Assembly: GCA_017526905.1 (NCBI GenBank)
Contig: JAFXQT010000089.1
Span: forward strand, 1 to 36,270
Reading direction: 5' to 3'
Length of the DNA stretch: 36,270 nucleotides
From: Bacteroidaceae bacterium
GTDB lineage: Bacteria; Bacteroidota; Bacteroidia; Bacteroidales; Bacteroidaceae
Below, piece after piece: positions 3 to 23,841 of this stretch. A program made the position numbers and the translations under genes. Each line of letters starts with the position of its first letter. Within the stretch, counting starts at the first letter, position 1. The notes under the pieces are model-generated. The model was not told where the DNA came from and made no database searches. It was given only the letters and a program-made list of their open reading frames with translations.

Positions 3-211
3 GGTGTGTTCTATTAATTAATAAATTCTCTATGAATTATCTTTGTTTGCTCTTGCCTCTTTCCGGCATCTTTTGCTCCAAGTCCTTGGGACGTTCTTGA
101 AGTGTCAAGCGTCGCAAGCGCCGAGTGGCCCGCTACGCCCCGGCGGTCTTGAAACAAAATCTGTTCGGAAATAGCCTAAGAGCAATTCAAAGCTAATTTA
201 TAGAACACACC
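3..211 (+). repeat. Fold-back (MITE-like) repeat, copy A
   Basis: The element begins GGTGTGTTCTAT and ends with its exact reverse complement ATAGAACACACC (200-211). The two halves remain complementary through most of their length, so a single strand can fold into one long interrupted hairpin. A second copy lies inverted at 23665-23841; over the shared 177 bases I count about 7 mismatches. Copy A carries 32 extra bases near the hairpin tip (about 94-125). A TAnnTTTG box pointing inward is present in each arm (TATCTTTG at 38-45 on plus, TAGCTTTG at 188-195 on minus). The right flank ATAA and the two visible left bases AA are compatible with a 4-bp target duplication, but the window edge cuts it off. 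No coding capacity is seen. It is probably a non-autonomous mobile element. Confidence 0.85.
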
Positions 212-356
212 ATAAATCATTGATACCGCTTGGAGCGTTCCTTATACATAAGGTCCCACTGAAGCGGAAAGCGCAGAAAGGATTCGAACGGCACCCCCTT
301 TAGGGTCGTTTTAGTTGGGCTCTTCAACCGAAGCATACACCGATACACGCCTAATG

Positions 357-392
357 GTGTAGCTTGTTCGGTCGCGAGCGAACAACCTACAC
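357..392. repeat. 14-bp-arm hairpin next to the tandem repeats
   Basis: The arms are GTGTAGCTTGTTCG (357-370) and CGAACAACCTACAC (379-392), complementary except for one central C/C position, around an 8-base loop. There is no T-tract after it, so it is not an obvious intrinsic terminator. It lies 5 bases before the 32-bp tandem repeats. Confidence 0.7.
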
Positions 393-397
393 AGCTA

Positions 398-493
398 CGC
401 TTTCAGGCTGCAGCGCAAAGGTGAGTGCTCGCTTTCAGGTTGCAACGCAAAGGTGTGTGTTCGCTTTCAGGCTGCAACGCAAAGATGTGTGGG
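398..493. repeat. Tandem repeat, 3 x 32 bp
   Basis: Three head-to-tail units start at 398, 430 and 462, each opening with CGCTTTCAGG and continuing with a TGCAACGCAAAG-type block. The period is exactly 32 bases and units differ at only a few positions. There are no spacers, so this is a minisatellite and not a CRISPR array. Confidence 0.85.
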
Positions 494-630
494 CATGCGT
501 GGCAGGACGTATTGATGGCGATTTGTAACTTTGTTTGCGCGCACACGCGTGTAAACTCACTTTTGCATACACTTATACACTCTTCTATACCTAATATATT
601 GTGTTTAAACTTTCTACGCTTCTATTTTTT

Positions 631-773
631 GGTGTATTTTGGGTGTATTTGTGAGTGTATGAGTGTATATTGTTATGAAAAAGTGTCGAAAACTTTGCAC
701 AAATGGTATAAAATGACGCAAGCTTTTCCCATTCCATACACCCATACACCCTCAAATACACCCTAAATACACC
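631..773. repeat. 38-bp inverted repeat built of GTGTAT motifs
   Basis: The left arm (631-668) and the reverse complement of the right arm (736-773) match at about 34 of 38 positions. Each arm contains four GTGTAT cores spaced about 8-12 bases apart (GGTGTATTT repeated). The 67-base centre is AT-rich and holds no gene. The same core recurs singly at 822-839. The layout suggests clustered protein-binding sites such as iterons or operator repeats, but the binding protein is not identifiable here. Confidence 0.75.
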
Positions 774-998
774 ATCATTTAAGCATGTAAATGACTGGAC
801 TATAGATAAATAAATACATTTAGGTGTATTAGTGTATGGAAAATCGTTCTTTATACACGCGTAGCAAAATGTAAGATGTTCAAGTTCCTCTACGTTTGCA
901 GGGAGTAACTTCAGCTATATACCTGAGCCCACTTTAAAAAGTCCAAAGGGATGAAAAGACCACAAGAAGTGTGGGGCCTGTTTTCCGCGTTGGGTCAC

Positions 999-1887
999 TC
1001 AAGTGCCCTTTCGCCAGTCAGGCACCACCAGTTGGCATAGCTCAGACTGCTCTTCGTCCATCCCCAGATATACCCGCTTGGTCTGCTTTGACTTCGGCAG
1101 AGTGTAAGTAATGGCGTACATGTTCTTGACCAGTTCCTGTGCCCGGTAGATGGTTATCTCTGATTTTGCGGCCTTCAGTATGCGTTCGAGTTCCAGCATA
1201 ATCGTGTATGCTGTGAAGCAGATGCAGATGTGCCCTTCAATTCTGTTTCGGAGCCTGTGGTAGATAGGGCGCACGACCAGGTCAAACTTGTTCATCCTGA
1301 AAGCCCGCTCGATAAACCAAAGATTGGAGTAGCTGGCGATGACCTCACCCTTTTCCAGCGTGGTGTTGGTGAGATAGCCCTTTATGCCGTCTCATGCGGC
1401 ATCGGCCTCATACCTCTCCATGTTGATGCTGATAGTCACCTCACCCTCCATCTTGAGGTACTTGTTGTACCCCCGGTTGTTGATGTTCTGCTTCGTCAGC
1501 CTGCCGCTGGCCATCTTCTTCTGGAGCCTCGCCAGTCCACGCTGTCGGTTGTGTGCATCCTTCCTGGCACGTTTCTCGGTACATGACAGGACAAGCCTCA
1601 CTCCGCCGCCCTTCTCTATTTCCACGACATCGCCATACTTCATGCCCAAGGAGAGAATCTGTTCCTTGACCTTTTCACTCTCCGATTTCGGCCTTGCACC
1701 AAGGATAAGGCCCCTCCATCTCCTGAATGAAGGACGATGCTTGTTGCAACAGCTTTTCCAACGCTGCCGTGTCGTTGGGATGGGCGGAACCGAAGGATTT
1801 TACCAATCGCTGCTTACGGGACTTGGTCGTGCTGAGGACAAAAACGCTGATCGTCCCTGATTTGTTGCGCTTCTTTCGGATAAACAT
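999..1887 (-). pseudogene. IS1634-family (IS4-like) transposase remnant
   Basis: The first 70 codons (1887 down to 1675) give the typical N-terminus of IS1634-type transposases (MFIRKKRNKSG). After a frame change the sequence resumes at 1649 with the C-terminal part, including the IERAFR segment that carries the catalytic Glu of the DDE triad and the hydrophobic HICICFTAY helix. An in-frame TGA at 1392-1394 sits where related proteins carry Trp, followed by DGIKGY in the same frame. The total coding length is under 300 codons, and the middle with the two catalytic Asp residues appears deleted. It is therefore broken in three ways: frame change, nonsense codon and internal deletion. A 10-base direct repeat GGGTCACTCA occurs at 992-1001 and 1904-1913. 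Confidence 0.85.
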
Positions 1888-1896
1888 AGTGCAAAG

Positions 1897-2593
1897 TTAG
1901 TGCGGGTCACTCACATTTGCAACTTTTTGGCTCCCAACTGCTTGATTTTTAGGATAGTTTAATTTTAGAGGCAGAGAAGCGCGGAAAACAGGACCGACAA
2001 ACACAGGGTTGACGATGTTATGGGCGTCGTCATCCACATAGTCGGCGGCCTTGTCCCACTTGATGATGTAGGGCACGCCGGCAAAGAGCGTGTTCTCCAT
2101 CTCCGGGTCATCATTCCAAGACTTCCTAAAGGTGAGGTTGAGCGTGGTGCCCTCGATGCTGGCGGCGGTCACGGTGCGGTAGGTGGCGCCGTAGAGCGGG
2201 CCGTCGGGGTCGGTCATATCCACGTCGAAGGGCAGGCACAGCGTGTTCCACTTGCCGTCCTTGTAGAGTGTGCGGCCGGCGAGTGTCACGTCAGCCCGTC
2301 CGCCGTAGTTGGCGATGATGTCCGTAGGACATCGGCATTGTCGGCATTGTCGGCCAATTCGGCGGCCCGATAGCTGATGGTCACCTCGACCGAGCCAGCG
2401 ACCTCGTTGTAAATGTCATCGCCGGGTACTTTGTAATATACGGTGTAGGTTCCGGCATCCGTAGCTGTGGGGATGAACGTTGTATAGTCGTCGCCGCCGG
2501 TCAAGCTGTAGGTCATTATGCCGTTGTCGGTCGTGCCTGCTGCTACGAGCGGCTGCGCCGAGCCGTTGTAGACGAGGTCGGCTATGGGCGGTT
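1897..2593 (-). pseudogene. Remnant of a secreted surface protein (MBG-like plus C-terminal repeat region)
   Basis: Reading from 2593 downward, the first frame gives an extracellular-repeat-like segment (YNGSAQPLV, then TDAGTYTVYYKV) resembling the MBG/YDG-type domains of Bacteroidetes surface proteins. The frame is lost near 2330. It is regained in another frame as ADVTLAGRTLYKDGKW and NTLCLPFDV, a segment common in large Prevotella-type secreted proteins. An in-frame TAA directly precedes the first codons at about 2594, so the 5' part is missing. A short tandem repeat of CGGCATTGT (about 2333-2351) lies at the frame break and may have caused it. It abuts the transposase remnant and was probably truncated by the same event. 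The C-terminus is also truncated or altered next to the insertion. Confidence 0.7.
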
Positions 2594-2690
2594 AGGCAGA
2601 TGCGGTAAAGTGTATGTGCTAAAAGAAAAGTTGTTCGGCCGCCGACATGCCTTTTCCAATGGTGTAACTACCACTTGCCATAATCCAGGA

Positions 2691-2720
2691 ATTCCCCACG
2701 GACAACTGCCCATGGGGAAT
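2691..2720. terminator. Hairpin downstream of the nitroreductase gene
   Basis: ATTCCCCA (2691-2698) and TGGGGAAT (2713-2720) form an 8-bp perfect stem. It lies about 80 bases past the stop of the minus-strand nitroreductase gene. There is no clear T-tract on either side, so a termination role is only a guess. Confidence 0.3.
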
Positions 2721-2800
2721 CAGTACGGACAGGCAAGCGTCACACTGTTGCAATAATGACGAGTGCGGTGCTTGCCGATAAAAACTCTTGACTAAGGGCC

Positions 2801-3436
2801 TTACTTGGCGGGAGGCCAACCGATGGGGTTGTTGAGCAGGGGCACCTGCTGCGGGGTGAGGCCGAGTTCGCGCGAGAGCCCGACGGTGTCCATCATCATG
2901 CGCGGCACGGTGTTCAAGCCGAGGGCGGTACACACCAGGCAGATGTTCTCCGACACGTATGCAGCATCGTACTTGCCCATGTCGGCAGCGCCGCGCGAAC
3001 GGTTGCCAAAGCGGCTCTGATCGCTGACCATGATGAGGGAAACGGGTGCCTGGGTGACGAACTGCTGGCCGGCTGCGAGGTACGGACGGACGTCCTTCTC
3101 GGTGACCTGCTTCAGCGTGTTCGTGCGCGGATCGTAGAGGAAGGCCCCGTCCTGACGGGCCACATAGATCAGGATGTCCTGCGCGTTGATGGCGCTGGGG
3201 GCCGTGATCTTCTTCTCCTTTTCGCGGTTGATGCCGCAAGCGGCCCACAGCACGGTGGACAGTGTCTTGGCATCGATCTCGCGCTGGGAGAAGGCGCGGG
3301 CAGAGGCGCGCTTGGACAGCGCCTCCAACAATGACATGCCGGCCTTGGTCTGGGGCTTGGGCAACTTGTAATCCTTGGCCTGGCCGGACAGGCAGAACGC
3401 AGCCAGGAGCATGACGGAAAGAATGTGTTTCATCAT
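2801..3436 (-). CDS. Exported nitroreductase-family protein
   Basis: This 211-residue protein starts with a clear signal peptide (MMKHILSVMLLAAFCLSGQAK) followed by a nitroreductase/SagB-type fold. Visible family features are the early RASARAF segment (FMN phosphate-binding region of the family), the WAACGINR motif and the GLNTVPRMM stretch near the C-terminus. Such enzymes bind FMN and use NAD(P)H or another donor to reduce nitro, quinone or similar compounds. The exported form is common in Bacteroidales, and its physiological substrate is not known. The gene follows the Na/Pi cotransporter gene by 33 bases on the same strand and is probably co-transcribed with it. A second ATG directly follows the first, so the start could be either. 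Confidence 0.85.
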   Translation of the reverse strand: MMKHILSVMLLAAFCLSGQAKDYKLPKPQTKAGMSLLEALSKRASARAFSQREIDAKTLSTVLWAACGINREKEKKITAPSAINAQDILIYVARQDGAFLYDPRTNTLKQVTEKDVRPYLAAGQQFVTQAPVSLIMVSDQSRFGNRSRGAADMGKYDAAYVSENICLVCTALGLNTVPRMMMDTVGLSRELGLTPQQVPLLNNPIGWPPAK

Positions 3437-3469
3437 TGTGTCTATGGGGTTAAGGGGAGGGTAAAAGGT

Positions 3470-5236
3470 TCAGTCTCTGCTGCGCAAGCCCATGCGGGCC
3501 TCGACCACATTGACCACATAGTCGCCCAGTTTCTCGCACTCGTTGACCAGGTCCATGTAGATGGTGCCCACGGCATAGGTGTATTCGTGGTTGTTCACGT
3601 CGATGATGTTCTGCTGCTTCAGCTGGTTGCGGTAGTTGTTTATTTCGTGCTCGGTGTTGAACGTGCGGTTCACATCGAACGTTTCCTTGCGCCCGGTCAT
3701 CAGCTGGTTCATCAAGGTGAGCGCGTCGTTGGTCAGCTCCATCATCTGATGCAGATGGCTGTACTGCTGCTCGGTGAAGTGGTCCTGCTTGGCTATGTAT
3801 TTGCGGGAAATGGAACGGGCCATGTTGTAGCAGGCGTCGCCGATGCTCTCCAGTTCGCTGATTTCGCGCAGCATGGCACGAATCTTGGCCTTGGTCTCAT
3901 CGCTGAGGTGGGCATCGCTCACCTGGTCGAGGTAATTGGCTATCTCCAGTTCCATGTTGTCGGAAATGTTCTCGTACTTCTCTATACGCGAGAACAGCTT
4001 GTTGAACTCCTCGGCCTGGTTGTCCTTTTTCTTGCCGGTGAGTGAGGATGAGAGGGTGAGCAACTCGCGCACCATGGAGAACATGCGCTGCATGCGCTCG
4101 GAGAAGAACTCGATTTCCTTGTGCGCCTCCAGGACGGACAGCTCGGGGGTCTTCATGAAGCCGGCGGTGATGAAATGCAGGCGGAAATCCTCCTCTTCGT
4201 CCATCTTCTTGGATTTGATGACCCAGCACACGAACTTCTCAATCTGCGGAATGAACCAAATGAGAATGGCCGTGTTGACCACGTTGAACGTGGTGTGGAA
4301 GGCGGCCAGCACATAATTCAGCTTGCCCACGTTGGCCATGAACTCGGCATGAGTGGCCTGGTCCTTGGTCATTTCCACATCGAAGCCAACCCAATCGCAC
4401 ACCATATCGACGAAGTAGCGGAACACGAACATAATCCACAACACGCCAAACACGTTGAAGAACAGGTGTGCCAGAGCGGCACGCCGTGCCTGTGTGTTGG
4501 CCGAGAGGGCTGCAAGGTTGGAGGTGATGGTGGTGCCGATATTCTCGCCCAGCACCAAGGCGATGCCCTGATAGATGGGCATTGCACCGGTGGAGCAGAG
4601 CAACATCGTAATGGCCATCACGGCCGCCGACGACTGCACGCAGAACGTCATGAGGCCGCCCAGCAACAGGAAGATGATGGTGGTGAGGAAGGAATCGGGG
4701 TCGAACGACTTGAAGAAGGAGGTAACAGCCTCGTTATTGGCCAGATCCATGGACATGCCCGTGGCCTTCAGGGTGGTGAGGCCCAGCAGCAACAGTCCGA
4801 TACCAAACAGGAAGTCGCCCACGTATCTGTGCCGCTTCATATAAATAAGCACGATGCCCACAAAAAAGCCCACATAGGAAATGATGCTGATATCGAACGG
4901 GGAGGCATCGCTGCCCGATGTGCCCAGTGCCATGATCCAGGCTGTGAGCGTGGTGCCGATGTTGGCACCCATAATCACGGAGATGGCTTGTGCAAGGGTG
5001 AGCAGGCCGGCATTGACAAACGAAACGGTCATGACAGTGGTGGCCGTTGACGACTGAACCGACGCAGTGACAAGCGTGCCGGTGAGCATGCCCGTGAAGC
5101 GGTTGGTGGTCATGGCGCCAAGCACATGGCGCAGTTGCGGGCCCGCCATCTTCTGCAAGGCCTCGCTCATGGATTTCATACCGAACATGAGCAGGGCCAA
5201 CGAGCCGAGAAGCTTAAAGATAATCCAAATAGACAT
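3470..5236 (-). CDS. Na/Pi cotransporter family protein with PhoU-like C-terminal domain
   Basis: The 588-residue protein has two repeated membrane modules, each with the paired signatures of the NptA/SLC34-type family: QSSTATT (about 61-67) with GANIGTT (90-96), and QSSAAV (about 201-206) with GENIGTT (230-236). These motifs form the substrate and Na+ site in the family. About nine hydrophobic segments fill residues 1-320. From about 360 on it is hydrophilic and helical (LSVLEAHKEIEFF, ISELESIGDACYNM), matching the PhoU-like domain found in bacterial members. The role is sodium-coupled phosphate uptake or phosphate homeostasis at the inner membrane. The downstream nitroreductase gene is probably in the same transcript. 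The substrate is inferred from family membership only. Confidence 0.9.
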   Translation of the reverse strand: MSIWIIFKLLGSLALLMFGMKSMSEALQKMAGPQLRHVLGAMTTNRFTGMLTGTLVTASVQSSTATTVMTVSFVNAGLLTLAQAISVIMGANIGTTLTAWIMALGTSGSDASPFDISIISYVGFFVGIVLIYMKRHRYVGDFLFGIGLLLLGLTTLKATGMSMDLANNEAVTSFFKSFDPDSFLTTIIFLLLGGLMTFCVQSSAAVMAITMLLCSTGAMPIYQGIALVLGENIGTTITSNLAALSANTQARRAALAHLFFNVFGVLWIMFVFRYFVDMVCDWVGFDVEMTKDQATHAEFMANVGKLNYVLAAFHTTFNVVNTAILIWFIPQIEKFVCWVIKSKKMDEEEDFRLHFITAGFMKTPELSVLEAHKEIEFFSERMQRMFSMVRELLTLSSSLTGKKKDNQAEEFNKLFSRIEKYENISDNMELEIANYLDQVSDAHLSDETKAKIRAMLREISELESIGDACYNMARSISRKYIAKQDHFTEQQYSHLHQMMELTNDALTLMNQLMTGRKETFDVNRTFNTEHEINNYRNQLKQQNIIDVNNHEYTYAVGTIYMDLVNECEKLGDYVVNVVEARMGLRSRD

Positions 5237-5695
5237 AGGATAACAGGGGAGATAATAGGGATTTTAAGTTTCGGGAATGAGAGGGTGTAGCTTAACAGGA
5301 AGTTATGCCAGCATGACTGGCCGGAAGTTTTGGCACTGGGTGAGGGATGATACTATCGGACGCCGGGGGTGTTTCCCTGTTCACGGCACAAGCCTTCCTA
5401 GAGTGTAGCAAAGTAACTTCCATTTTAAGTTCCGACAGTTGGGTAATGAAAATTATGTAAGATATGGGTCCGTTGTGGGACTTTCGCCTGTAGGTGAATT
5501 GCATGCAACACCCGAGGGTTGCATAGAGTTCACTTTAAAGCTCTGCAAATATAGGTGGATTTTGTGTTATGGCGTGCAATGGCACGCATATAAGTTCTTT
5601 TTTTTAAGCGAAACGAAAAAAAAGGAGGCAAACGTTTGTCGGTTCTCACAAATTCTTCTTACCTTTGACCCCAACAATCTAACGAATACGACATC
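5237..5695. other. Divergent intergenic region between Na/Pi transporter and ssb
   Basis: The two genes point away from each other across 459 bases. The ssb-side promoter is called separately. On the minus strand a perfect -7 box TATATTTG lies at 5546-5553, about 310 bases upstream of the transporter start, so that transcript would have a long leader. I see no credible ORF: the 70-codon minus-strand frame at 5292-5504 has an unfamiliar composition. Confidence 0.5.
5635..5667 (+). promoter_or_regulatory. Promoter of ssb-gldE-mutY
   Basis: TTTG at 5635-5638 (-33 element) and TACCTTTG at 5660-5667 (-7 element) are separated by 21 bases and fit the Bacteroidetes primary-sigma consensus. The ssb start codon is 29 bases downstream. 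Confidence 0.8.
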
Positions 5696-6055
5696 ATGGC
5701 AAGTGTGAACAAGGTAATTCTGCTGGGCAACGTGGGCAAAGAGCCCGAGGTGCGCTACGTGGAAGCAGGCGTGGCTGTGGCACAATTCTCGCTGGCCACC
5801 ACCGAACGTGGCTACAAACTGCAAAACGGCACAGAGGTGCCCGACCGCACGGAATGGCACAACGTCGTGGCTTGGCGCAAGCAGGCAGAAATCATCGAGA
5901 AATATGTTCACAAGGGCGACATGCTCTACGTTGAAGGCAAGATACACACCCGCTCCTACGACGATAAGCAAGGCGTGAAGCGCTACGTCACCGAAATCTG
6001 GGCCGACCAGATTGAGCTGATGCCACGCCAAGCAGCCGCCCCTGCTGCACAGTAA
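5696..6055 (+). CDS. ssb: Single-stranded DNA-binding protein
   Basis: The protein has 119 residues and is essentially one OB-fold domain. It opens with the family-typical MASVNKVILLGNVGKEPEVRY and contains TEWHNVVAWRKQAEIIEKY and KGDMLYVEGKI segments, all characteristic of bacterial SSB. It binds single-stranded DNA during replication, repair and recombination. The C-terminus is short and ends in PAAQ. The acidic D-D-I-P-F-type tail that recruits partner proteins in most SSBs is absent, and no frameshift is visible that would explain the loss. The stop is only 3 bases before the gldE start, so the two genes are translationally close. The ssb-gldE-mutY clustering is typical of Bacteroidetes. 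Confidence 0.95.
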   Translation: MASVNKVILLGNVGKEPEVRYVEAGVAVAQFSLATTERGYKLQNGTEVPDRTEWHNVVAWRKQAEIIEKYVHKGDMLYVEGKIHTRSYDDKQGVKRYVTEIWADQIELMPRQAAAPAAQ

Positions 6056-6058
6056 CTT

Positions 6059-7387
6059 ATGGACTATTATTTATCGGGCCTGACGGGCCTTTTTGACGGA
6101 ATTACTACACAGGCTCCCACCATGGGGGCCATTGTTGCATTGGTAGTGGCCATTGTGCTGCTGGGCTGCTCGGCTTTTGTCAGCGGCAGCGAAATTGCCT
6201 TCTTCTCGCTCTCGCCATCGGACATGAACGAGATCGAGGACGAGAAACACCCTGCCGACACCAAGATAAAACGCTTGCTGGCCGACAGCGAACGCTTGCT
6301 GGCCACCATCCTGTGCAGCAACAACTTTGTGAACGTGGCCATCACGCTACTGCTCAACTACTTCTTCCTGCAAACCATCGACTTCGGTGTGAACAAGCTG
6401 CTGGAGTTTGTGTTCACCACCATTGTAATTACATTCATGCTCCTTATTCTTGGCGAGATCATGCCCAAGATTGCATCCGGGCAGAACGCCTTGCGCATGG
6501 CCCGTTTCTGCGCCCCAGCCTACCTGGTGCTGGAACGGCTCTGGTGGCCGGTGGCAACCCTGCTGGTGGGCAGCACCAAACTGACCAACCGCATCCTGTC
6601 ACATGCGCCCCAGCAGCTGTCGGTTGACGATCTGGAGCAGGCACTGGAACTGACCGACAAGGACGAGATTCGCGAGGAGAACCAAATCCTGCAAGGTATC
6701 ATCCGGTTCGGTGGCGAGATGGCACGGGAAGTGATGACGCCACGCGTGGACATGGTTGACCTGGACATCAAGACACCCTTCAACGAAGTGCTGCAATGTA
6801 TTGTCGAAAACAACTACTCGCGCATACCCATCTATGCCGGTTCGGAGGATAACATACGCGGCATCCTCTATATCAAGGACCTGCTTCCGCACCTGGGCAA
6901 GCCTGCCACCTTCCGCTGGCAGACACTGGTGCGCCAAGCCACCTTCGTGCCAGAAACCAAGATGATTGACGACCTGCTGCGCGATTTCCAGGCTCAGAAG
7001 GTGCACATGGCCATCGTGGTGGACGAATTTGGCGGCACCAGCGGTCTGGTGACCATGGAGGACATCATCGAGGAGATTGTGGGCGAGATCGAGGACGAAT
7101 ACGACGAGGAGGAAAAGACCTACCAGCGCCTGAACCAAAACACCTATGTGTTCGAGGCCAAGACGCTGCTCTCGGACTTCTATAAGATTGTGCAGGTGGA
7201 CGATGACACCTTCGACGAGGTGGTCGGCGATGCCGACACGCTGGCCGGCCTGCTGCTGGAACTGAAGGGCGAATTCCCCACCCTGCACGAACGCCTCACC
7301 TACGACCGCTTCGTGTTCGAAGTGTTGGAGATGGACGAACGTCGCATTGTCAAGATCAAGGTGATTATCAAGGAGGCAAAAGACTGA
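6059..7387 (+). CDS. gldE: GldE-type CNNM/CBS-domain membrane protein
   Basis: The 442-residue protein has an N-terminal CNNM (DUF21) membrane domain with about four hydrophobic segments between residues 20 and 170 and the SGSEIAFFSLS motif. It then has two CBS domains (about 215-335; VMTPRVDMV and DEFGGTSGLVTMEDIIEEIVGEI are diagnostic) and a C-terminal CorC/HlyC transporter-associated domain. This is the HlyC/CorC family to which gliding protein GldE belongs. In Flavobacterium GldE is needed for gliding and lies next to ssb and mutY, as here. Non-gliding Bacteroidales keep the gene, where a role in ion homeostasis or lipoprotein assembly is possible but unproven. No gldD follows within the window. 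Confidence 0.9.
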   Translation: MDYYLSGLTGLFDGITTQAPTMGAIVALVVAIVLLGCSAFVSGSEIAFFSLSPSDMNEIEDEKHPADTKIKRLLADSERLLATILCSNNFVNVAITLLLNYFFLQTIDFGVNKLLEFVFTTIVITFMLLILGEIMPKIASGQNALRMARFCAPAYLVLERLWWPVATLLVGSTKLTNRILSHAPQQLSVDDLEQALELTDKDEIREENQILQGIIRFGGEMAREVMTPRVDMVDLDIKTPFNEVLQCIVENNYSRIPIYAGSEDNIRGILYIKDLLPHLGKPATFRWQTLVRQATFVPETKMIDDLLRDFQAQKVHMAIVVDEFGGTSGLVTMEDIIEEIVGEIEDEYDEEEKTYQRLNQNTYVFEAKTLLSDFYKIVQVDDDTFDEVVGDADTLAGLLLELKGEFPTLHERLTYDRFVFEVLEMDERRIVKIKVIIKEAKD

Positions 7388-7418
7388 AGGCGGACGCTTG
7401 AAGATGGGAAATTGAAAA

Positions 7419-8423
7419 ATGAAAGATTTCGCCCCTACCCTTCTGCGCTGGTACGCCACCAACGGACGCACGTTGCCGTGGCGCGGCACACACGACCCCT
7501 ATCTCATTTGGGTAAGCGAAATCATACTTCAGCAAACACGTATTGAACAGGGGCGCGACTACTACCTGCGCTTCACCCGCCACTGGCCCACCGTGCAGGC
7601 CCTGGCCGCCGCCACCGAGGACGAGGTGCTGCTGCAATGGCAGGGACTGGGCTACTATAGCCGGGCACGTAACATGCTGCACGCTGCCCGCCAGGTAATG
7701 CAACAAGGCGGGACGTTTCCATGCACCATTGAGGGACTGCGCCAACTGAAAGGCGTCGGGCCCTATACAGCCGCTGCCATCGGGTCGATGGCCTTCGGCC
7801 TGCCTGTTGCCACTGTGGATGGCAACGTGTATCGCGTGCTGGCCCGCCACTTCGGCATAGACACCCCTATCAATTCCACCCAAGGCCAGAAGCTTTTTGC
7901 ACAACTGGCCCAGTCGCTACTGCCACAGCAACAAGCAGCCGACTTCAACCAAGCCATGATGGACTTCGGAGCCATTCAGTGTACACCGCAGTCGCCCCAT
8001 TGCGATACCTGCCCGCTGGCCGACACCTGCGTGGCATTGCACACGGATCAGACCGAGCGCCTGCCGGTGAAAGGAAACAAGACGAAAGTCACCACCCGCC
8101 GCCTTACATATATATATATAAGGTGTAACGGTTTCACGGCCATACACCGGCGTCCGGCCGGCGACATCTGGCAAGGCCTGTGGGAACCAGTGAAAATGGA
8201 AGAAGGGAAGATGAAAATGGAAGATGCCGTCTGTCTGCGCCAAAATGTGAAGCACGTGCTGACGCACCAAGTGCTGCTGGCCGACTTCTACCTGCTGCTT
8301 ACCGACCAGCGCCCCGCCCTGCCCCCAGACTACATTTGGGTACACGAATCCGAGCTGTCGGGCTATGCTGTGCCTCGGTTGGTGGAAATACTATTGGAAA
8401 GTGTACCCGAAATAACTGAATGA
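7419..8423 (+). CDS. mutY: A/G-specific adenine glycosylase
   Basis: This 334-residue enzyme removes adenine mispaired with 8-oxoguanine or G. The catalytic Glu lies in SEIILQQTRIEQ (E34), the helix-hairpin-helix is LKGVGPYTAAAIGSMAF (110-126), and the catalytic Asp is D134 in VDGNVYR. The iron-sulfur loop has Cys188, Cys195, Cys198 and Cys204 with the canonical C-x6-C-x2-C-x5-C spacing. A MutT-like recognition domain follows. Two oddities lie in that domain's coding sequence: a 13-base alternating AT run (8108-8120, encoding YIYI) and a low-complexity insertion KMEEGKMKMED encoded by purine-rich repeats. It starts 31 bases after gldE and is probably in the ssb-gldE operon. Confidence 0.95.
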   Translation: MKDFAPTLLRWYATNGRTLPWRGTHDPYLIWVSEIILQQTRIEQGRDYYLRFTRHWPTVQALAAATEDEVLLQWQGLGYYSRARNMLHAARQVMQQGGTFPCTIEGLRQLKGVGPYTAAAIGSMAFGLPVATVDGNVYRVLARHFGIDTPINSTQGQKLFAQLAQSLLPQQQAADFNQAMMDFGAIQCTPQSPHCDTCPLADTCVALHTDQTERLPVKGNKTKVTTRRLTYIYIRCNGFTAIHRRPAGDIWQGLWEPVKMEEGKMKMEDAVCLRQNVKHVLTHQVLLADFYLLLTDQRPALPPDYIWVHESELSGYAVPRLVEILLESVPEITE

Positions 8424-8541
8424 AGGTGAAACGCTTAATGTTTTCGGTCAAAAAAGCAAATATTTTTTCCCAAAAAAGTAAAAAGAAGCCTCTTTTGAAT
8501 AAAAAAACACGCAAATATTTCTGTAACTGCTTGGAAATACC

Positions 8542-8549
8542 TACTTTTG
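8542..8549 (+). promoter_or_regulatory. -7 element upstream of the HU gene
   Basis: TACTTTTG fits the TAnnTTTG box exactly and lies 52 bases before the HU start codon. The -33 region has only a partial TTTC match at 8518-8521. The preceding 100 bases are very A-rich. Confidence 0.6.
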
Positions 8550-8601
8550 CAAGCCTTTTTACAGGAACGTACATAAACCCATACATTAAAATACCACAAA
8601 A

Positions 8602-8886
8602 ATGACAAAACAAGACATCGTCAACACCATCTCTGAACAGACCGGTCTTGACAAAGCCGTGGTTCTGACCACCATTGAAGCATTCATGGCAACCGTGAAA
8701 GATGCTCTCATCGAGAAGAAAGAAAATGTCTATCTGCGTGGATTCGGCAGCTTCATCCTGAAGCGTCGCGCTCAGAAGACTGCTCGCAACATCACCCAGA
8801 ACACCACTATGATCATTGCCGAGCACAACATTCCCGCCTTCAAGCCCGCTAAGATCTTCTTTGAGGGTGTCAAGGCTGGCAAGTAA
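8602..8886 (+). CDS. HU/IHF-family DNA-binding protein
   Basis: The protein has 94 residues, the usual length of HU-type proteins. It opens MTKQDIVNTISEQTGL and has the family's dimer core with V-Y-L-R-G-F-G-S-F at about 44-52, followed by the DNA-contacting arm (RRAQKTARNITQNTTM) and the FKPAKIF ending. It bends and compacts DNA as a dimer. The gene lies between mutY and a small basic ribosomal-type protein gene, with its own promoter box. The start is supported by the preceding A-rich leader and by full family length. An IHF-like subunit is the alternative label. Confidence 0.95.
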   Translation: MTKQDIVNTISEQTGLDKAVVLTTIEAFMATVKDALIEKKENVYLRGFGSFILKRRAQKTARNITQNTTMIIAEHNIPAFKPAKIFFEGVKAGK

Positions 8887-8948
8887 AGGGTCAGTAATTG
8901 ACGATTTCACACCTTTGTTATAAACTCACTTATTAAATTATTACAGCT

Positions 8949-9038: not shown

Positions 9039-9085
9039 GCTATTTGCTCTGCGACTCTCAGCCCTCAGCTTAGTGAGTCACAACG

Positions 9086-9126: not shown

Positions 9127-9193
9127 TGTTTGCAACAAACAAAACAACCAGAAACAAGTTACTGCAACAAAACTACATCACACTCACCACACT

Positions 9194-15916: not shown

Positions 15917-15956
15917 ATCATCGGGTTATAATGTTATCGCTATTCAGTAACTGCAC

Positions 15957-17978
15957 TCATTCCTCTCCTATCCTCACGCCCACCACAGGCTTCCCCTGTT
16001 TATCAATAAAGCGTGCGCAGAAGTCGCTCATACCAGGGCCATTTATCACGGCGCAGTGCAGCACATTACGGCCACGCCGGAGCGAAACGCGTGCCGACGC
16101 ACCATCGTCGCGAACCATGCGGCGGTCGCCAGACAGCAGCAGGATTTCCTCGCCGTTCAGCCACCACTTTGAAGCGCCATTGCTGCCTGCTGCCAAACGC
16201 ACATCGGGGATATCCTCGTCGCACATAATCACCGTCGCCGCCCAGAACAAGACGCCATAGGGCTGCATGCCCAGCAGGTCGGCAAAGCGAAACAGTTTCA
16301 CGTTGTAGCGTTCGCTTTCCACCGCGTGCCAAGCCAGCCACCTGCCGCCTACCTTCACCTTCTGCCCGTCCTTGGGCATCGAGCGCTGGTCCACGGCGAA
16401 GGGCGGCGTGGCAAACGCTTCGTTCAGATAGCTGTCCGTGAAAACGGTATTGGAGGGATTCGGCTTGGCAATGGGTTCCAGCACCAGCCAACGGCGAATG
16501 AATCCCTCGCTGTCGGGCGTGGCCGGGGCTGCCTTGGCTGCCACAGACGAGAAGTAAGGCTCGCGCACCTTGAACTGCAGCCAATCTACGCTAATGCCTG
16601 CTCCCTCGGCCACCACACACAGGGTGCCGACACCCTCAGGCACCGATTCGAGCTGTGCCGTCAGCGTAACCCATTGCCCGCGCATGTCGCGATGGCGACC
16701 ACCCTCTTGCTGCACCTTGATGGGCAGCCGGGCAATGACACGCCCCTTTGCATTGGTCTGTCGCACCACCAGCTGAGCATCGGCCATGGCCCGCACGTTG
16801 GCCACCAGGTAAACACCGCCCACATCCTTAGCGCGCAATGCACGCTGGGTGTTGAGCTGGCGCAGGTTACCGAAATCCACATCGGCATAGGTTATCCAAC
16901 TGCCCGCCTGTGGCAACACGGCGTGCCAACCGCGAAAAGTATCGGCCGAATCGTTGTAGGCATAGGTCACCCCCGTGCTGCACGAGCTGTAGCGATCCAC
17001 CTCGATGCACTGTGTGGCCGCATTCACGCCCACGCCGCGCAAGGTTGGCACCACCTCTCGGATGGTGCCGTCGGCATTAAAGAACAGCCTGTCGATATGT
17101 GCCGAACGCAGCTTGTCGAAGTGCGGCGAATAGTCGTTGTGGTGGTAAAAGAGCAGCCACTGGCCGCGATACTCAACAATGCTGTGGTGGTTGGTCCAGC
17201 AGCGGTTGGGGTGCTCCTTCATAATAATGCCCTTGAACTGCCATGGCCCCAACGGCTTATCGCTCATGGCATAGGCCAGCGTCTCAGTGCCGCCCTCGTG
17301 CCGCACCCAAGGGAAAGTCAGATAGTAGTGCCCACCATGTTTGAAGGCAAAGGGCCCTTCCTTGAAGCCGTCGGGCAGCCCCTGCATTTCCTGCACGCCA
17401 CCATCCAGATGCTTCATGTCTGCATGCAGCCTGGCACCGCGCATGGGGCCGCCGGCCCAGTAGATATAAGCCTGCCCATCGTCGTCCACCAGCACACAGG
17501 GGTCTATGCCCGTCACGCCGGCAATGGGTTCGGGCTCGCAGGTGAACGGCCCCTCGGGCTGGTCGGCCGTGGCCACGCCAACGGCAAAGCCACGTCCCTG
17601 GCGGGGTGCATCGGGGAAATAGAAATAGTAGCGGCCATCCTTGCACACACAGTCGGGTGCCCACATAGAGTAGCCATCGGCCTTGCCCCAGGGCACCTCT
17701 GCCTGCGTCACAATCACGCCGTGGTCGGTCCATTCCGTGAGGTTCTCCGACGAGAACACATGGTAGTCGGCCATGCAGAACCAGTCCTGCCGCTGGCCGG
17801 CCGGAGCCGGTATGTCGTGCGATGGGTACAGATACACCTTGCCGTTAAACACGCGTGCCGTAGGGTCGGCCGTAAACTGGTCACGGACGATGGGATTCTG
17901 CCCCATCACCGTCCGGCCAACTGGTGCAAGTACAAAGAGGGTGCACCACGTCAGAAGATTGTGTTTCAGACTTAACAT
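15957..17978 (-). CDS. GH43-family glycosidase with CBM6-like and extra C-terminal domains
   Basis: I start at the ATG at 17976-17978 (MLSLKHNLL), giving 673 residues with a hydrophobic signal-like N-terminus. The upstream in-frame extension has no signal-peptide character. The GH43 domain shows the base Asp in ADPTARVF (about D38), Asp in VTGIDPCVL and the acid Glu in GFKEGPFAF, followed by YYLTFPW. A CBM6-like beta-sandwich follows at about 355-490 (YADVDFG, GTLCVVAEGAGISVDWLQF). After it comes a region to the C-terminus (LLGMQPYGVLFWAATVI, KWWLNGEEI) of the type seen in acetylxylan-esterase-linked or PA14-like modules. Likely substrates are xylan or arabinoxylan side chains. It is the upstream gene of the GH43 pair. 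Confidence 0.85.
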   Translation of the reverse strand: MLSLKHNLLTWCTLFVLAPVGRTVMGQNPIVRDQFTADPTARVFNGKVYLYPSHDIPAPAGQRQDWFCMADYHVFSSENLTEWTDHGVIVTQAEVPWGKADGYSMWAPDCVCKDGRYYFYFPDAPRQGRGFAVGVATADQPEGPFTCEPEPIAGVTGIDPCVLVDDDGQAYIYWAGGPMRGARLHADMKHLDGGVQEMQGLPDGFKEGPFAFKHGGHYYLTFPWVRHEGGTETLAYAMSDKPLGPWQFKGIIMKEHPNRCWTNHHSIVEYRGQWLLFYHHNDYSPHFDKLRSAHIDRLFFNADGTIREVVPTLRGVGVNAATQCIEVDRYSSCSTGVTYAYNDSADTFRGWHAVLPQAGSWITYADVDFGNLRQLNTQRALRAKDVGGVYLVANVRAMADAQLVVRQTNAKGRVIARLPIKVQQEGGRHRDMRGQWVTLTAQLESVPEGVGTLCVVAEGAGISVDWLQFKVREPYFSSVAAKAAPATPDSEGFIRRWLVLEPIAKPNPSNTVFTDSYLNEAFATPPFAVDQRSMPKDGQKVKVGGRWLAWHAVESERYNVKLFRFADLLGMQPYGVLFWAATVIMCDEDIPDVRLAAGSNGASKWWLNGEEILLLSGDRRMVRDDGASARVSLRRGRNVLHCAVINGPGMSDFCARFIDKQGKPVVGVRIGEE

Positions 17979-18121
17979 ATACAACAATGTGAATAGTTTC
18001 TGCCGCGAATATAGGCATAAGACAGGACATAGGTACATGCGAGCGACCTAATTTCTGCCGGAAGATACAATTATGCACTACTTTTGAAGCGACGACGCAA
18101 GCCGCCTTCGTTTCTGCAAGA

Positions 18122-18160
18122 CAAAAATGCGAGAGGCCGGACCTTAGTCCAGCCTCTCGC
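18122..18160 (-). terminator. Intrinsic terminator (minus strand) downstream of the 1081-residue protein
   Basis: GCGAGAGGC (18129-18137) pairs with GCCTCTCGC (18152-18160), and the inner GGAC/GTCC extends the stem. Read on the minus strand it is followed by ATTTTTGT. Confidence 0.85.
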
Positions 18161-18168
18161 TCGTACGC

Positions 18169-18264
18169 TTATCTCCAACCTTGGTTGTTGCGTTCTTCTT
18201 CGGGACGCCAGTCGTCATCCCAAACATTGTAGTGCGGAGCGGCCGGCGTGACGTATACATTGCG
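18169..18264 (-). pseudogene. Short in-frame C-terminal remnant after the 1081-residue protein
   Basis: Past the stop of the large secreted protein the same frame continues TGA-GAA-TGC-TGA. It then stays open for 31 codons containing NVYVTPAAPHYNVWDDDW and ending EEERNNQGWR before a TAA and the terminator. The composition is protein-like (acidic, aromatic) rather than random. There is no start codon of its own in frame. It is best read as the 3' remnant of a lost gene, although stop-codon readthrough cannot be excluded from sequence alone. Confidence 0.45.
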
Positions 18265-18273
18265 TCAGCATTC

Positions 18274-21200
18274 TCACTTCACGACCACCTTGCGGCCCTG
18301 GCCGATGTAGAGCCCACGTGTGGGCTGTGCCACGCGCCGTCCGCTCAGGTCGTAGTAAGTGCCCTTGCCTGCCTTGGCTTCCAGCATTTGGCTTATCCGG
18401 GTTACGATGTCGTTGTTCAGATAGTAGCCCTTCACGCCACTGCCTGCCTCGCCTGCAATGTAGGCCCGGAAGCCAGTCAGGGTTTCGCCATCCCAGTGGA
18501 AGAAGCCCACCTTGTCCTCGCTGCTGCCCAGCACGTAGTGCGTGGCGCCGTCAAATGCGATCGGCAGATAGGTGCCCACCAGTGTTCCGCCGGTTGCGAT
18601 GTCGGCAGCTTCAGCCGCGGGTGTGATGGTGGCTGTGGCCGATGCACTTTGGGCCACCAGCAGCACGGGAGTTCCGGCAGCAACGGTGGTCGATGGCTCG
18701 GACATGTTCAGTTCGGTGCCGTCCTTGGAAAGCGTGTAAGCCTCAGCCTCGGTCAAGGCTGCTGCATAGGGCAGGCAGAGGGTGGCGTAATAGTAGTCGT
18801 CGCCGCCATCGTCCAGGGCCACAGGCAGTTCCGTTACTGCTTCGAGATACCAACTGGTGTAGCGAGCATTGGTCGAAGCATTGATGGTCAGGTTGCCACC
18901 GCGGTCTGCACTGCTGGAATTATCGCCATTATCATAGAAATGGGCATTATTTGAGAGGATGGCATAGCCGCCATTGGTCTGCCCATCCTGGAAGGTAACC
19001 TGCGAAGCTGCATCGCCAGTAACCCAAGCCCAGGCACTGGTATTCATACCATTGCTCAAGCCCGAGCTGAAGTTGGTGAGTGTGGTGCCATCGAAGTAGA
19101 AGATGGTGCTGGCATCCGTGGCATCGCTCATGGCAAACTTATTGTTGCTGGCCAGGCCTGCTGCAAGATACTTGCTGCTGGTTTGGCCTTTGATGCGGTA
19201 GAAGCCGGCTGCGGGCAGGTTCAGCGCGTAGTTGGCAAGCATCTGTTGGGCAGCGGCCAGATTCTGCTCCGAGTATCCCGACTTCAGCTGAGCGATAAGC
19301 GCTGCTTCGTTGCCTGCGTAGCCAGCCAAATCACCGCTCACTTGATACTTGTTCAGCCCAGTGCCCCAATTGACGGCTTCGATCTGTGCAAGCAACTGGT
19401 TGTAGAGGGCCTCACCTTCGAGCACTTCCTCGGCAGTAAATGTCGAGCCCAAATCTGCCCCGTTAGTCCAATATGCCAAGGAGGTGCCGGGGGCGCGGTA
19501 ATTCAGCGCATGGCCATCGGCATTGTAGATGAAGAAGCCACCAGTGAGGAAGGTGCTCGGAGTCAGAGACCACAGCTCATTATGACTCGTGCCAGGAGCA
19601 GCAAGAGAGGCATGAATACTGGCACCTGAATCGTCAATGCCAATGGTGGTGGCAGAACCGAGCACAAGGCCCGTTCCGGCTGCGCGGTTGATGATTTGGA
19701 AACCGGTGTAAGGAGAGCCTATGAAGGCCCACTGGTTGTTAGTGTCATCGTCTGTGGACGGCGCCTGCACATTATCTGCGCCATCGGCTACATAGACTGG
19801 GTAGTACGCATCCTTCAACTTCAGCTTATACCAGACAGGGGCGGTTGCATCGGCTGTGTATTTAACCAACGGCGCTGCCTTGGGTGTGGCAGTGAAAGTA
19901 GCCGTAGTAGCAGCCCCGCTCACGGTCAGGCTGATGGTATTGTAGTCGTAGAAACCAGACCTCTGATACTTTTCGGGCAGGGTGGTGATGACTTCGCCAA
20001 TGCCCACCTTCTCTGCCTCCGGGCTTCGGAACAATTCGTTGTTGCTCTCATCCACAACCACGTAGGTCACCTCCGAAGCCGACAGGATGCGCAACGTGAT
20101 ATCCACAATCGTGCCACCATTGGCAATGATGTGGTTGCTGCTGGTTACATCGTTGATGTCCGCGCCTGGGTTGCCACCTGGGTCAGTGCTGGCCCAGTCC
20201 AGCTTGAAGCGTGCACGATAGTCGCCGGGTGTGGTGGGCATTGTGAATGCCGGCATCTCCTGCTTGCTGCTGTTCAACGCATTGCCTTGGTTGGCATAGG
20301 AGAGCAGTTCGCCATTATACTCGGTGTTTGCCGCTGTTTGGTGGTCGGGATTGGCCACGTAGAAGGCTCCGTCGTTGTCCAGGTCAACATAGAAGAAGCC
20401 GTGCATCCACTGGCCTTGGTAGCCGATGGCAGGAACCAATGTAGCGCCAGCCGGAACCACGAGTACCTGGTCGGTCAGGTCGCGATAGGCAGGCGTATTG
20501 AGCCCATCGTTGGTGATGTCGAAGGTCTTGTCGCCAATGCGGACATTGGTAATGAAACGGTCGGTACGTGTGTATTTCTGATCCTTCGAGAAGTTGATCG
20601 GCCAACGTCCATCCTCGCACTTCACCGTGATGGTGGTGCCGCTGATGGTCACCGTGGCCTTCATATAGTCGTATCCTGCAGGGAAGGTAACGACTACATC
20701 GTTTTCGGTGATAGCGCTCTGCGAAGTCACGCTGCCCCCATTGCTCACGGCCTCGTTCTTGACCGTGACGGCTGTTCCCTCCACGGCGCCATTGATCACG
20801 ACTGTATAATCGTAAGTGCTTGAGGCATAGGTAAACGTAATGGTCTTGTCGGCATCGGCAGTCGCGCTGCCCGTGCCTTGAATTGTATAGCCTGCCAACT
20901 GGGGAGCCTTGATAGTGGCCCCTGTCTTCACGATCATTTCAGCAGGGTCTTGGACAGGATTGTTGCTGGCATCGACATACTGCACGTTTACGACATAGAA
21001 AGGACCATAGGTGATATAAGTGCTATAGCCGCCGGTGCCCGCGCGGAAGCCAAGGTTCACGGTGTTGCAGTTGTAATGGTTGCCGGCAGCATTGTCCAAA
21101 CTGACATGCAGGTCGGCACTGGCAAATTCGGCGGCATAGTCGCCGGCGCGGCGGTTCACGGGCTTGAAGTCCAGCTTTGTGCTGGCATCGAAGTTGCCAC

Positions 21201-21519
21201 CTTCGGCGGATACATAGTTGCCATCGCTGACGCGCTTGATGTTGTACCAACCATCGCCCGTGGTGCTACTTTCCAAGTCAAAGAGGTGCTCCTTATCCAG
21301 CGTACCGACAAAAGAGGTCGAAAAGCCGAACCAGTTGGGATAGCAGAACTGGGTGTTGCTGCTTGAACCTACAATGGCAAAATGCTTTCCTGTGCCTGCC
21401 AACGCGGTGAACTCATCGAACGTAAGCGGGCTGCCTGCACTTGCACGGTCCGTAACGGCCTGTGCCCAACCGGCAGCAGTCAGACAGGCCAATGCAATAA
21501 GTGTAAAGATTCTTTTCAT
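18274..21519 (-). CDS. Large secreted protein with GEVED-type domain and Prevotella-type C-terminal tail
   Basis: The 1081-residue protein has a signal peptide (MKRIFTLIALACLTAAGWAQA). No catalytic domain is recognised. Around residues 370-440 the segment FFYVDLDNDGAFYV then PGDYRARFKLDW matches the GEVED domain found in many secreted Bacteroidetes proteins. Two regions (about 80-130 and 580-690) have repeated W/Y-rich motifs such as GWYNIKRVSDGNYVSA and QWAFIGSPYTGFQIINRAAG that resemble ricin-like lectin repeats. The tail YYDLSGRRVAQP followed by GLYIGQGRKVVVK is the C-terminal motif shared by many exported Prevotella-type proteins. It probably binds or degrades carbohydrate at the cell surface. 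It has its own promoter and terminator. Confidence 0.8.
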   Translation of the reverse strand: MKRIFTLIALACLTAAGWAQAVTDRASAGSPLTFDEFTALAGTGKHFAIVGSSSNTQFCYPNWFGFSTSFVGTLDKEHLFDLESSTTGDGWYNIKRVSDGNYVSAEGGNFDASTKLDFKPVNRRAGDYAAEFASADLHVSLDNAAGNHYNCNTVNLGFRAGTGGYSTYITYGPFYVVNVQYVDASNNPVQDPAEMIVKTGATIKAPQLAGYTIQGTGSATADADKTITFTYASSTYDYTVVINGAVEGTAVTVKNEAVSNGGSVTSQSAITENDVVVTFPAGYDYMKATVTISGTTITVKCEDGRWPINFSKDQKYTRTDRFITNVRIGDKTFDITNDGLNTPAYRDLTDQVLVVPAGATLVPAIGYQGQWMHGFFYVDLDNDGAFYVANPDHQTAANTEYNGELLSYANQGNALNSSKQEMPAFTMPTTPGDYRARFKLDWASTDPGGNPGADINDVTSSNHIIANGGTIVDITLRILSASEVTYVVVDESNNELFRSPEAEKVGIGEVITTLPEKYQRSGFYDYNTISLTVSGAATTATFTATPKAAPLVKYTADATAPVWYKLKLKDAYYPVYVADGADNVQAPSTDDDTNNQWAFIGSPYTGFQIINRAAGTGLVLGSATTIGIDDSGASIHASLAAPGTSHNELWSLTPSTFLTGGFFIYNADGHALNYRAPGTSLAYWTNGADLGSTFTAEEVLEGEALYNQLLAQIEAVNWGTGLNKYQVSGDLAGYAGNEAALIAQLKSGYSEQNLAAAQQMLANYALNLPAAGFYRIKGQTSSKYLAAGLASNNKFAMSDATDASTIFYFDGTTLTNFSSGLSNGMNTSAWAWVTGDAASQVTFQDGQTNGGYAILSNNAHFYDNGDNSSSADRGGNLTINASTNARYTSWYLEAVTELPVALDDGGDDYYYATLCLPYAAALTEAEAYTLSKDGTELNMSEPSTTVAAGTPVLLVAQSASATATITPAAEAADIATGGTLVGTYLPIAFDGATHYVLGSSEDKVGFFHWDGETLTGFRAYIAGEAGSGVKGYYLNNDIVTRISQMLEAKAGKGTYYDLSGRRVAQPTRGLYIGQGRKVVVK

Positions 21520-21638
21520 AGGTCACAAAGATTATAGTTAGTATATGAAGGTATTCTTCGCATCCAATCGTGAGCCACGCCAATGTACATCCCCACATCC
21601 GATTCCCTTTGGCTCTGTTTCCCATTAGTATTACGGCA

Positions 21639-21668
21639 CAAAGTTAGCGATAAGTTTTGAACAACCAA
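21639..21668 (-). promoter_or_regulatory. Promoter of the 1081-residue protein gene
   Basis: On the minus strand TAACTTTG (21646 down to 21639) and TTG (21668 down to 21666) are spaced by 19 bases. The start codon is about 120 bases downstream. Confidence 0.8.
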
Positions 21669-21857
21669 CTATTCCGAGGAGTTTTTTTTCTTTATCAGCA
21701 GCAGTCCCTGCCCTCTGCACCACACCAAAAGGTCACGACACAGGGCTGCGCAGCCAGCCGCACGCACACGCCCCGCCAAGCCGCGGGCCAGTGCCAGCCT
21801 GGCAGCGGCTTGGCATCCGACCTGCGGCAGCAGGGCATGGTGCTTCAGGGCAGCGGC

Positions 21858-22643
21858 TCAGATGCCTTCGCCATCGGTAAAACCTATTTGCTTGATGGGC
21901 TTCGACTGCCGCACCACCGAGCAAGGCTCCACGTCGTGAGTAATCCACAGGTTGCCGCCCACCACGGCATCGTGGCCTATGGTGATGCGGCCCAGCACGG
22001 TGGTGTTGGCATAGATGGTCACGTTGTCCTGAATGATGGGATGGCGCGGCTGGTCGAGCAGGCGGCCCGAAGCATCGTGCTGGAAATTCTTGGCACCCAA
22101 CGTAACGCCCTGATAGAGCATTACGTGGTTGCCGATGATGGCCGTGGCCCCGATGACGATGCCGGTGCCGTGGTCGATGGCAAAGGCCCGCCCGATGGTG
22201 GCGGCAGGGTGTATGTCGATGCCCGTGAGCGAGTGGGCACGCTCGGTGATGATGCGAGGCAGCAGGGGCACCCCTACCTGATGCAACAGGTGAGCCACCC
22301 TGTAGCTGAGTATGGCCACAATGGCCGGGTAGCAGCACAGCACTTCGGCCACCGATGTGGCTGCCGGGTCGCGCTGGCTGATGGCGGCCGCATCGGCCTG
22401 CAAGGCGCGCCACACCCCTGGCAACTGCTGCCAAAAGGCGGCGGCCAGGGCGGCGGCCCGCTCGTCGGGCTGGGCCTGCCCTGTGGGTGCAGTGGCCTCG
22501 GTGGCCTGCACACTCCAGCGTATCAGGCTGAGCAGCAACGCTTCCCTGGATGGCATAGGGGCGGACGCATCGAAGGGAGGAATGCCATGCTCCGCGAGCA
22601 GTTGCTGGCGGAGCACGGCAAGAAAGGTATCAACAGGTAACAT
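21858..22643 (-). CDS. cysE: Serine O-acetyltransferase
   Basis: The 261-residue protein has the alpha-helical N-terminal half of serine acetyltransferases. A left-handed beta-helix of hexapeptide repeats starts near residue 140 (GIDIHPAATIGRAFAIDHGTGIVIG), with the catalytic His residues in GIDIHP (H145) and IDHG (H158). A YQGVTLGAK motif and an INDNV-type turn follow. It transfers acetyl from acetyl-CoA to L-serine, the first step of cysteine synthesis. The C-terminus ends GFTDGEGI and lacks an obvious terminal Ile-peptide match beyond that Ile, which in other species docks into CysK. It follows cysK by 81 bases on the same strand, forming a cysteine operon. Confidence 0.93.
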   Translation of the reverse strand: MLPVDTFLAVLRQQLLAEHGIPPFDASAPMPSREALLLSLIRWSVQATEATAPTGQAQPDERAAALAAAFWQQLPGVWRALQADAAAISQRDPAATSVAEVLCCYPAIVAILSYRVAHLLHQVGVPLLPRIITERAHSLTGIDIHPAATIGRAFAIDHGTGIVIGATAIIGNHVMLYQGVTLGAKNFQHDASGRLLDQPRHPIIQDNVTIYANTTVLGRITIGHDAVVGGNLWITHDVEPCSVVRQSKPIKQIGFTDGEGI

Positions 22644-22724
22644 GAAAGCTGTCGGTTTGTGGTTATAAGCAGGTGTTCACAATTGGTTTTATAAAGCTAC
22701 TGAAGGTATGCCCGTTCGCGCACA

Positions 22725-23651
22725 CTACACCTCGGCACCGAACAGGCCGGTGGAGAGGTAGCGCTCGCCTGTGTCGGGGAACACGGCCACGATGTTCTTG
22801 CCGGCATGTTCGGGCATGCGGGCCAGCCGCAGCGCAGCGGCATAGGCGGCACCGGAGGAGATGCCCACGAGCAGCCCTTCGCGCTGGGCCAACAGGCGGG
22901 CATGTTGGCGTGCCTCGTCGTCGGTCACGGTGAGCACCTCGTCGATGGCCGCAGCATCGTAGGTGTCGGGAACGAAACCGGCACCGATGCCCTGGATGGC
23001 GTGCTTGCCTGCCTGACCTGTCGAAAGCACTGCCGAGGTGGCAGGCTCTACGGCCACCACGCGGACGGACGGGTTGTGGCGCTTCAGCGCGCGTCCGGTG
23101 CCACTCACCGTGCCGCCGGTGCCCACGCCAGCCACCAATATATCGACCTGCCCATCGGTGTCGGCCCATATCTCCTGGGCTGTGGTGCGCTCATGCACGG
23201 CTGGATTAGCCGGGTTGACAAACTGGCCGAGGATGATGGCACCCGGTGTCTGGCTACTCAACTCGTTGGCGGCGGCAATGGCACCCTTCATGCCCTGAGC
23301 GCCGGGCGTGAGTTTCAGCTCGGCTCCATAGGCCTGCAGCAGTGCACGCCGTTCCACCGACATGGTGTCGGGCATAACCAACACCACCCGATAGCCCTTG
23401 CTGCGGCCCACCCATGCCAGGCCGATGCCGGTGTTGCCGCTGGTGGGCTCTACGATGGTGGCACCCGGCTGCAGCAGGCCACGCTGTTCGGCATCCTGAA
23501 TCATGGCCAGCGCTATGCGGTCCTTCACGCTTCCGCCCGGGTTGAAATACTCAAGTTTGGCCACGACGGAGGCTTGTTGCCCCTCGGCCTCACGCAGGCG
23601 CAGCAACGGTGTGCGCCCAATCAGTTGGGTAAGGTTGTTGTAAATCATCAT
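22725..23651 (-). CDS. cysK: Cysteine synthase A (O-acetylserine sulfhydrylase)
   Basis: The 308-residue PLP enzyme has the Schiff-base lysine in GGSVKDRIA (K43), the substrate loop TSGNTG (70-75), the glycine-rich phosphate loop [11 protein letters not shown] and the late VGISSGAA motif. It makes cysteine from O-acetylserine and sulfide. Length and motif order match CysK rather than the longer cystathionine beta-synthase. Two Met codons open the gene and either could be used. The fold-back repeat copy B ends only 13 bases upstream of the start codon, so its promoter and leader must lie in or beyond that repeat. It is the first gene of the cysK-cysE pair. Confidence 0.95.
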
Positions 23652-23664
23652 GTGTTTGTGTTTA

Positions 23665-23841
23665 GGTGGGTTCTATAAATTAGCTTTGAATAGCTCTTAG
23701 GCTATTTCCGAACAGATTTTGTTTCAAGGCCGCCGGGGCGTAGCGGGCTACGTCCCAAGGACTTGAAGCAAAAGATGCCGGAAAGAGGCAAGAGCGAACA
23801 AAGATAATTCATAGAGAATTTATTAATTAATAGAACGCACC
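23665..23841 (-). repeat. Fold-back (MITE-like) repeat, copy B, in the cysK leader
   Basis: This is the reverse-oriented copy of the element at 3-211. It is flanked by TTTA on both sides (23661-23664 and 23842-23845), consistent with a 4-bp target duplication. It lacks the 32-base tip insertion of copy A. Its centre is a clean palindromic tip (GGGACGTAGC-CC-GCTACGCCCC when read on the minus strand). Ends GGTGGGTTCTAT and ATAGAACGCACC are imperfect versions of the copy A ends. No coding capacity. Confidence 0.87.
23799..23806 (-). promoter_or_regulatory. -7 element inside repeat copy B, facing cysK
   Basis: Read on the minus strand, TATCTTTG fits TAnnTTTG exactly. A transcript from here would start near 23792 and carry the remaining repeat as a hairpin-forming leader of about 140 nt before cysK. 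No clear -33 TTTG is seen, so activity is uncertain. Confidence 0.45.

Follow-up and report, generated by a model that had tools for sequence, protein, structure and literature searches.

A gene-less, hairpin-folding MITE-like element dispersed in Prevotella-like gut bacteria

Two fold-back elements lying in opposite orientations bracket 23.4 kb of the 36,270-nucleotide stretch of Bacteroidaceae DNA analysed here (the window), which raises the question of whether they form a functional pair around the intervening segment or are two copies of a dispersed repeat. The window is a complete contig (G000:C27) of a 2.8-Mb genome that is assembled in 104 contigs and estimated to be 79% complete, with copy A at the very start of the contig. 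Our preferred reading, to which we assign a probability of roughly 0.88, is that both represent a MITE-like DNA transposon, non-autonomous and mobilized by a transposase supplied elsewhere, and that the 23.4 kb between them is ordinary chromosome.

The two copies and their relatives

The features concerned are as follows.

3..211, minus strand: copy A, 209 bp long with the 32-base block at the hairpin tip; flanked by ATAA on the right, and on the left by AA only, where the contig begins
3..20, plus strand: left terminal inverted repeat of copy A, GGTGTGTTCTATTAATTA
194..211, minus strand: right terminal inverted repeat of copy A, GGTGTGTTCTATAAATTA
22725..23651, minus strand: cysK-like gene (PALP family), the leader of which holds copy B
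23661..23664, no strand: left TTTA of the target duplication around copy B
23665..23841, plus strand: copy B, a 177-bp element within the cysK leader, its end 13 bases from the cysK start codon
23665..23682, plus strand: left terminal inverted repeat of copy B, GGTGGGTTCTATAAATTA
23824..23841, minus strand: right terminal inverted repeat of copy B, GGTGCGTTCTATTAATTA
23842..23845, no strand: right TTTA of the target duplication around copy B

The first-pass annotation had described the copies as inverted, about 96% identical over 177 bases, different by a 32-base block, and self-complementary throughout, with TTTA on both sides of copy B, and all of these points were borne out. After removal of the 32-base block, which is present in copy A only, copy A agreed with copy B, read as its reverse complement, at 170 of 177 positions, and a repeat search paired positions 1–94 with 23750–23843 (97% complementary) and 125–211 with 23665–23751 (95%). 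As single-stranded DNA, both copies folded end to end far better than shuffled sequences (z = –9.5 for copy A and –6.3 for copy B; equally good shuffles, 0/200 for either). No open reading frame of 80 or more amino acids was found within either copy in the ORF list of the window.

A BLAST search of the same genome with copy B yielded 51 candidates, and the 40 that were scored all matched at E 0.01; the element therefore occupies at least 40 places, some of them partial. Its 18-bp terminal inverted repeat, GGTGnGTTCTATnAATTA (the ends are also given in the form GGTGnGTTCTAT), was found at 68 sites in this genome with up to two mismatches, compared with one site for a reversed control pattern. 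The body of the element was detected in 27 of 139 genomes of the genus, this one included (six candidates scored per genome), and the exact terminal repeat in 25 of the 139, as well as in 31 of 399 genomes of the family and in 12 of 30 sampled genera. A contig scan for the terminal repeat listed at least 113 loci, mostly from entries titled Prevotella, Prevotellaceae, Bacteroidaceae, Bacteroidales or Muribaculaceae; some of the listed loci from other phyla are probably chance matches. A named carrier with paired ends is Segatella buccae ATCC 33574 (L311), in which the flanks are TTCA and TTAA, without a perfect duplication. The plasmids and phages searched contained no match to the element; viral contigs gave nine loci, four of which showed a 227-bp pairing with four mismatches at one end and no duplication.

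The family that the first-pass annotation could not name is a MITE-like family: its members are short (177 and 209 bp), occur in many copies, carry terminal inverted repeats and lack a transposase gene, and the target duplication has a fixed length of 4 bp. Without genes of its own and folding as a hairpin, the element occurs widely among Prevotella-like gut bacteria. No description of it was found in the open-licence literature searched, and the hits to sequence strings were unrelated by title. Among the other matches, a 30-bp element (L056, 900–929) consists of little beyond two terminal repeats and has ATAA on both flanks, and two lone terminal repeats (L053 and L055, on G000:C24 and C60) adjoin a common sequence, AAGTTTCGCAAGCGATGCCGTAGGCATCAGA, perhaps another repeat family.

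Transposition and the search for a transposase

Copies with both ends and flanks were examined for target duplications. In the same genome, 11 of 14 such copies showed identical 4-bp flanks, compared with a mean of 1.7 and a maximum of 7 in 10,000 shuffled pairings; the remaining three were L004, L022 and L025. Among 71 distinct elements of 150–260 bp from other genomes and loci, identical 4-bp flanks were found in 40 (shuffled mean 11.6, maximum 24) and were lacking in 31. Identical flanks of five bases occurred in 2/71 and of six bases in 0/71, and 37 of the 40 duplications had the pattern T..A.

An empty site was sought at one locus, the cysK leader. Copy B is absent from the leaders of the two closest cysK relatives (G018 and G111, 73% identity). 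In G018, TAAACACTCAACTATG next to the start codon aligns with TAAACACAAACACATG after the element in the window; a second TAAA lies seven bases upstream, so that the empty site cannot be placed at one single base. The element has moved by transposition, and the dispersed copies, the 4-bp duplications and the absence of copy B from two relatives together support a mobile fold-back element; these were the checks on which, according to the first-pass annotation, its reading could have failed.

In the mechanism that we propose, a transposase made elsewhere, most likely that of an IS982-like element, would recognize the ends, excise the element and insert it at a T..A target cut with a 4-bp stagger, in many cases between genes. 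The element ends agree with those of IS982-like elements of the genus at 12 of 16 positions (0.00055 at random), the next best of the 12 ends compared agreeing at 9; this resemblance between sequences is suggestive only. The genus IS982-like elements are about 1.03 kb long, have the ends AACGTGAGTTCGAYGAATT and contain a transposase, whereas the element has none, and the flank repeats of their copies, read by eye, are 4–6 bases long and not T..A, whereas those of the element are 4 bp and mostly T..A.

Partial searches found no autonomous parent with the same ends, in genomes whose fragmentation hides multi-copy IS. Seven of 85 listed pairings of terminal repeats were 0.9–3.3 kb apart, and none of these had matching 4-bp flanks. 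The 29 new PF13612 loci examined in 33 genomes had no such ends, except for a fused fragment in G129, and the PF01609 loci checked in 20 genomes had other ends, with the same exception. A search for IS982-like fragments in 139 genomes, together with that for PF13612 in 33, returned the ends AACGTGAGTTCGA or ACGYCAGTTCGGG and variants. By eye, no transposase was noticed in the ORFs nearest to lone terminal repeats, among the matches listed. In the G129 fragment (G129:C138), one element is joined to part of an IS982-like transposase (PF13612). Since this locus is occupied in six other genomes by an element that lacks the transposase part (75 bp in G081, G088 and G108; 165 bp in G412, G426 and G452), the fusion may be secondary, and we lowered our estimate that it proves an IS982 parent; the elements at this locus in the other genomes have no perfect duplication (TAAA and TTAA). 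A search for the partner would have a well-defined target. A relic of an IS982-like transposase without its N-terminal half was also noted in the genome of the window (L202, G000:C78:2238-2657).

Comparable systems differ in detail. Correia, RUP and ERIC elements are dispersed, hairpin-forming mobile repeats without genes, like the element here; their duplications are TA, compared with 4 bp here. MITE239 of Porphyromonas gingivalis is likewise a small non-coding element in the genome of a member of the Bacteroidales, the listed end of which, ACGTGAGTTCGATATAAAGGAA, shares a GTGnGTTC core with the element here and, compared by ends alone, differs in sequence from GGTGnGTTCTATnAATTA; ISPg3 (ACGTCAGTTCGA), labelled IS5 in the table, is given there as matching MITE293 and MITE700 (PMC4596501). 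A MITE derived from ISCca4 in Cardinium cOegib is about 240 bp long and has ends very like those of an IS982-family element; by description alone it resembles the element here in lacking a transposase and in occurring in Bacteroidota, but intact copies of its parental IS are reported, whereas none was found for the element here (PMC9769881).

Conservation and possible role of the hairpin

The most frequent spacing of paired ends was 188–195 bp (31 of 85 listed pairings, with nine at 175–180 bp), although the bodies differ. Inside the terminal repeats, 56 of the 71 elements folded better than shuffled sequences (mean z < –2, median –4.0; 25 mononucleotide shuffles each), and 15 folded no better (mean z > –2). 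In an alignment of the 177-bp type (n = 31), 23 of 45 consensus pairs had changed on both sides and 94.3% of cells paired, and none of 500 shuffles reached the observed values on any of five measures; in an alignment of 187–195 bp elements (n = 38), at least two Watson-Crick types were seen in 15 of the 16 inner pairs that both strands predicted, and Watson-Crick cells numbered 531/606, compared with 104–199 when the alignment was slid, the counts in both alignments being inflated by shared ancestry. As judged from these two alignments, the internal hairpin is maintained through compensatory changes.

The hairpin could be kept because the folded DNA matters for movement or for correction between the arms, or because, in the RNA of leaders and trailers, it allows insertions to be tolerated. 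Conservation of a single RNA strand would predict tolerance of G-T mismatches but not of A-C mismatches. Among the pairs that both strands predicted, G-T and A-C numbered 21 and 21 in the 177-bp type, and 23 and 21 in the 187–195 bp alignment. With strand-neutral structures, G-T exceeded A-C in all six settings (61:39, 55:32, 32:24, 47:38, 29:20 and 12:10), with P values from 0.018 to 0.83 and cells that are not independent. The plus orientation folded better than the minus in both alignments (–32.3 versus –19.7 for the 177-bp type; –27.0 versus –9.9 for 187–195 bp). The mismatches appear mainly strand-neutral, and a weak RNA component is possible. Given the better folding of the plus orientation and the mild excess of G-T, a strict DNA-level reading of the covariation was given less weight.

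The near neutrality of the mismatches is consistent with the idea that the covariation arises without selection, as a by-product when one arm of a DNA palindrome is corrected against the other during replication. We regard this account as possible but tentative, as the length is held near 190 bp across genera despite differing bodies, which correction alone does not explain.

A second alternative is that the element is a functional RNA or promoter cassette, in which the hairpin was spread and kept to regulate adjoining genes. Copy B separates the cysK start from an attenuator-like hairpin, insertions just upstream of one gene occur in seven genomes of two genera, and both the compensatory changes and the folding and mismatch biases described above point in this direction. 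However, the strand bias is weak, with nearly equal G-T and A-C counts on both-strand pairs; copies next to genes occur in either orientation, and an ORF heuristic places several copies between convergent genes; and neither the element nor the attenuator-like hairpin matched an Rfam family at the gathering threshold. Taken together, these observations make a regulatory cassette unlikely, and the MITE-like transposon remains our preferred reading. By inserting into leaders such as that of cysK, the transposon could change expression. The attenuator-like hairpin itself is at window positions 23903–23935, with its sense on the minus strand; the corresponding place in G018 and in G111 is occupied by a hairpin that differs in sequence, with a T-run after it.

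A broader version of the transposon reading would place the element in a family-wide class of DNA hairpins of about 190 bp in Bacteroidales, long without a resident autonomous partner, in which fold and length rather than sequence are conserved and the folded DNA is the substrate of a transposase with a 4-bp T..A target. We consider this generalization unlikely. Should fold and length prove to be conserved as the sequence drifts, the elements would be a natural data set on the needs of a mobile hairpin.

The bracketed segment

Contig ends were found within 60 bases of 20 of the 40 scored places of the element in the genome. Since half of the places are at contig ends, the bracketing of the 23.4 kb is most simply explained by a dispersed repeat together with an assembly break, and the bracketed segment looks incidental. 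The repeat breaks the assemblies of these genomes and can give a false impression of paired structures. The proposal of the first-pass annotation that recombination between copies A and B flips the 23.4-kb segment is very improbable: although the copies are inverted and their identity over 177 bases is in principle enough for homologous recombination, they are two among at least 40 places in this genome, copy A coincides with a contig end, no recombinase was noticed beside either copy in a partial ORF scan, and the fetched contigs of the cysK relatives G018 and G111 have in common with the window only 21862–23665 (cysK-cysE) and short matches to the element, too little for a comparison of order and orientation.

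Other repeats and RNA matches were noted in the window. A 32-nt tandem array of 2.9 copies lies near copy A (398–491), and a 23-nt tandem array of 4.6 copies is found at 27284–27388; the BrickBuilt repeats of P. gingivalis are likewise 23 nt, a likeness in unit length alone (PMC4596501). Matches to the Bacteroidales-1 (6S-like) RNA and to the small SRP RNA are located at 29909–30097 and 32657–32763, respectively.
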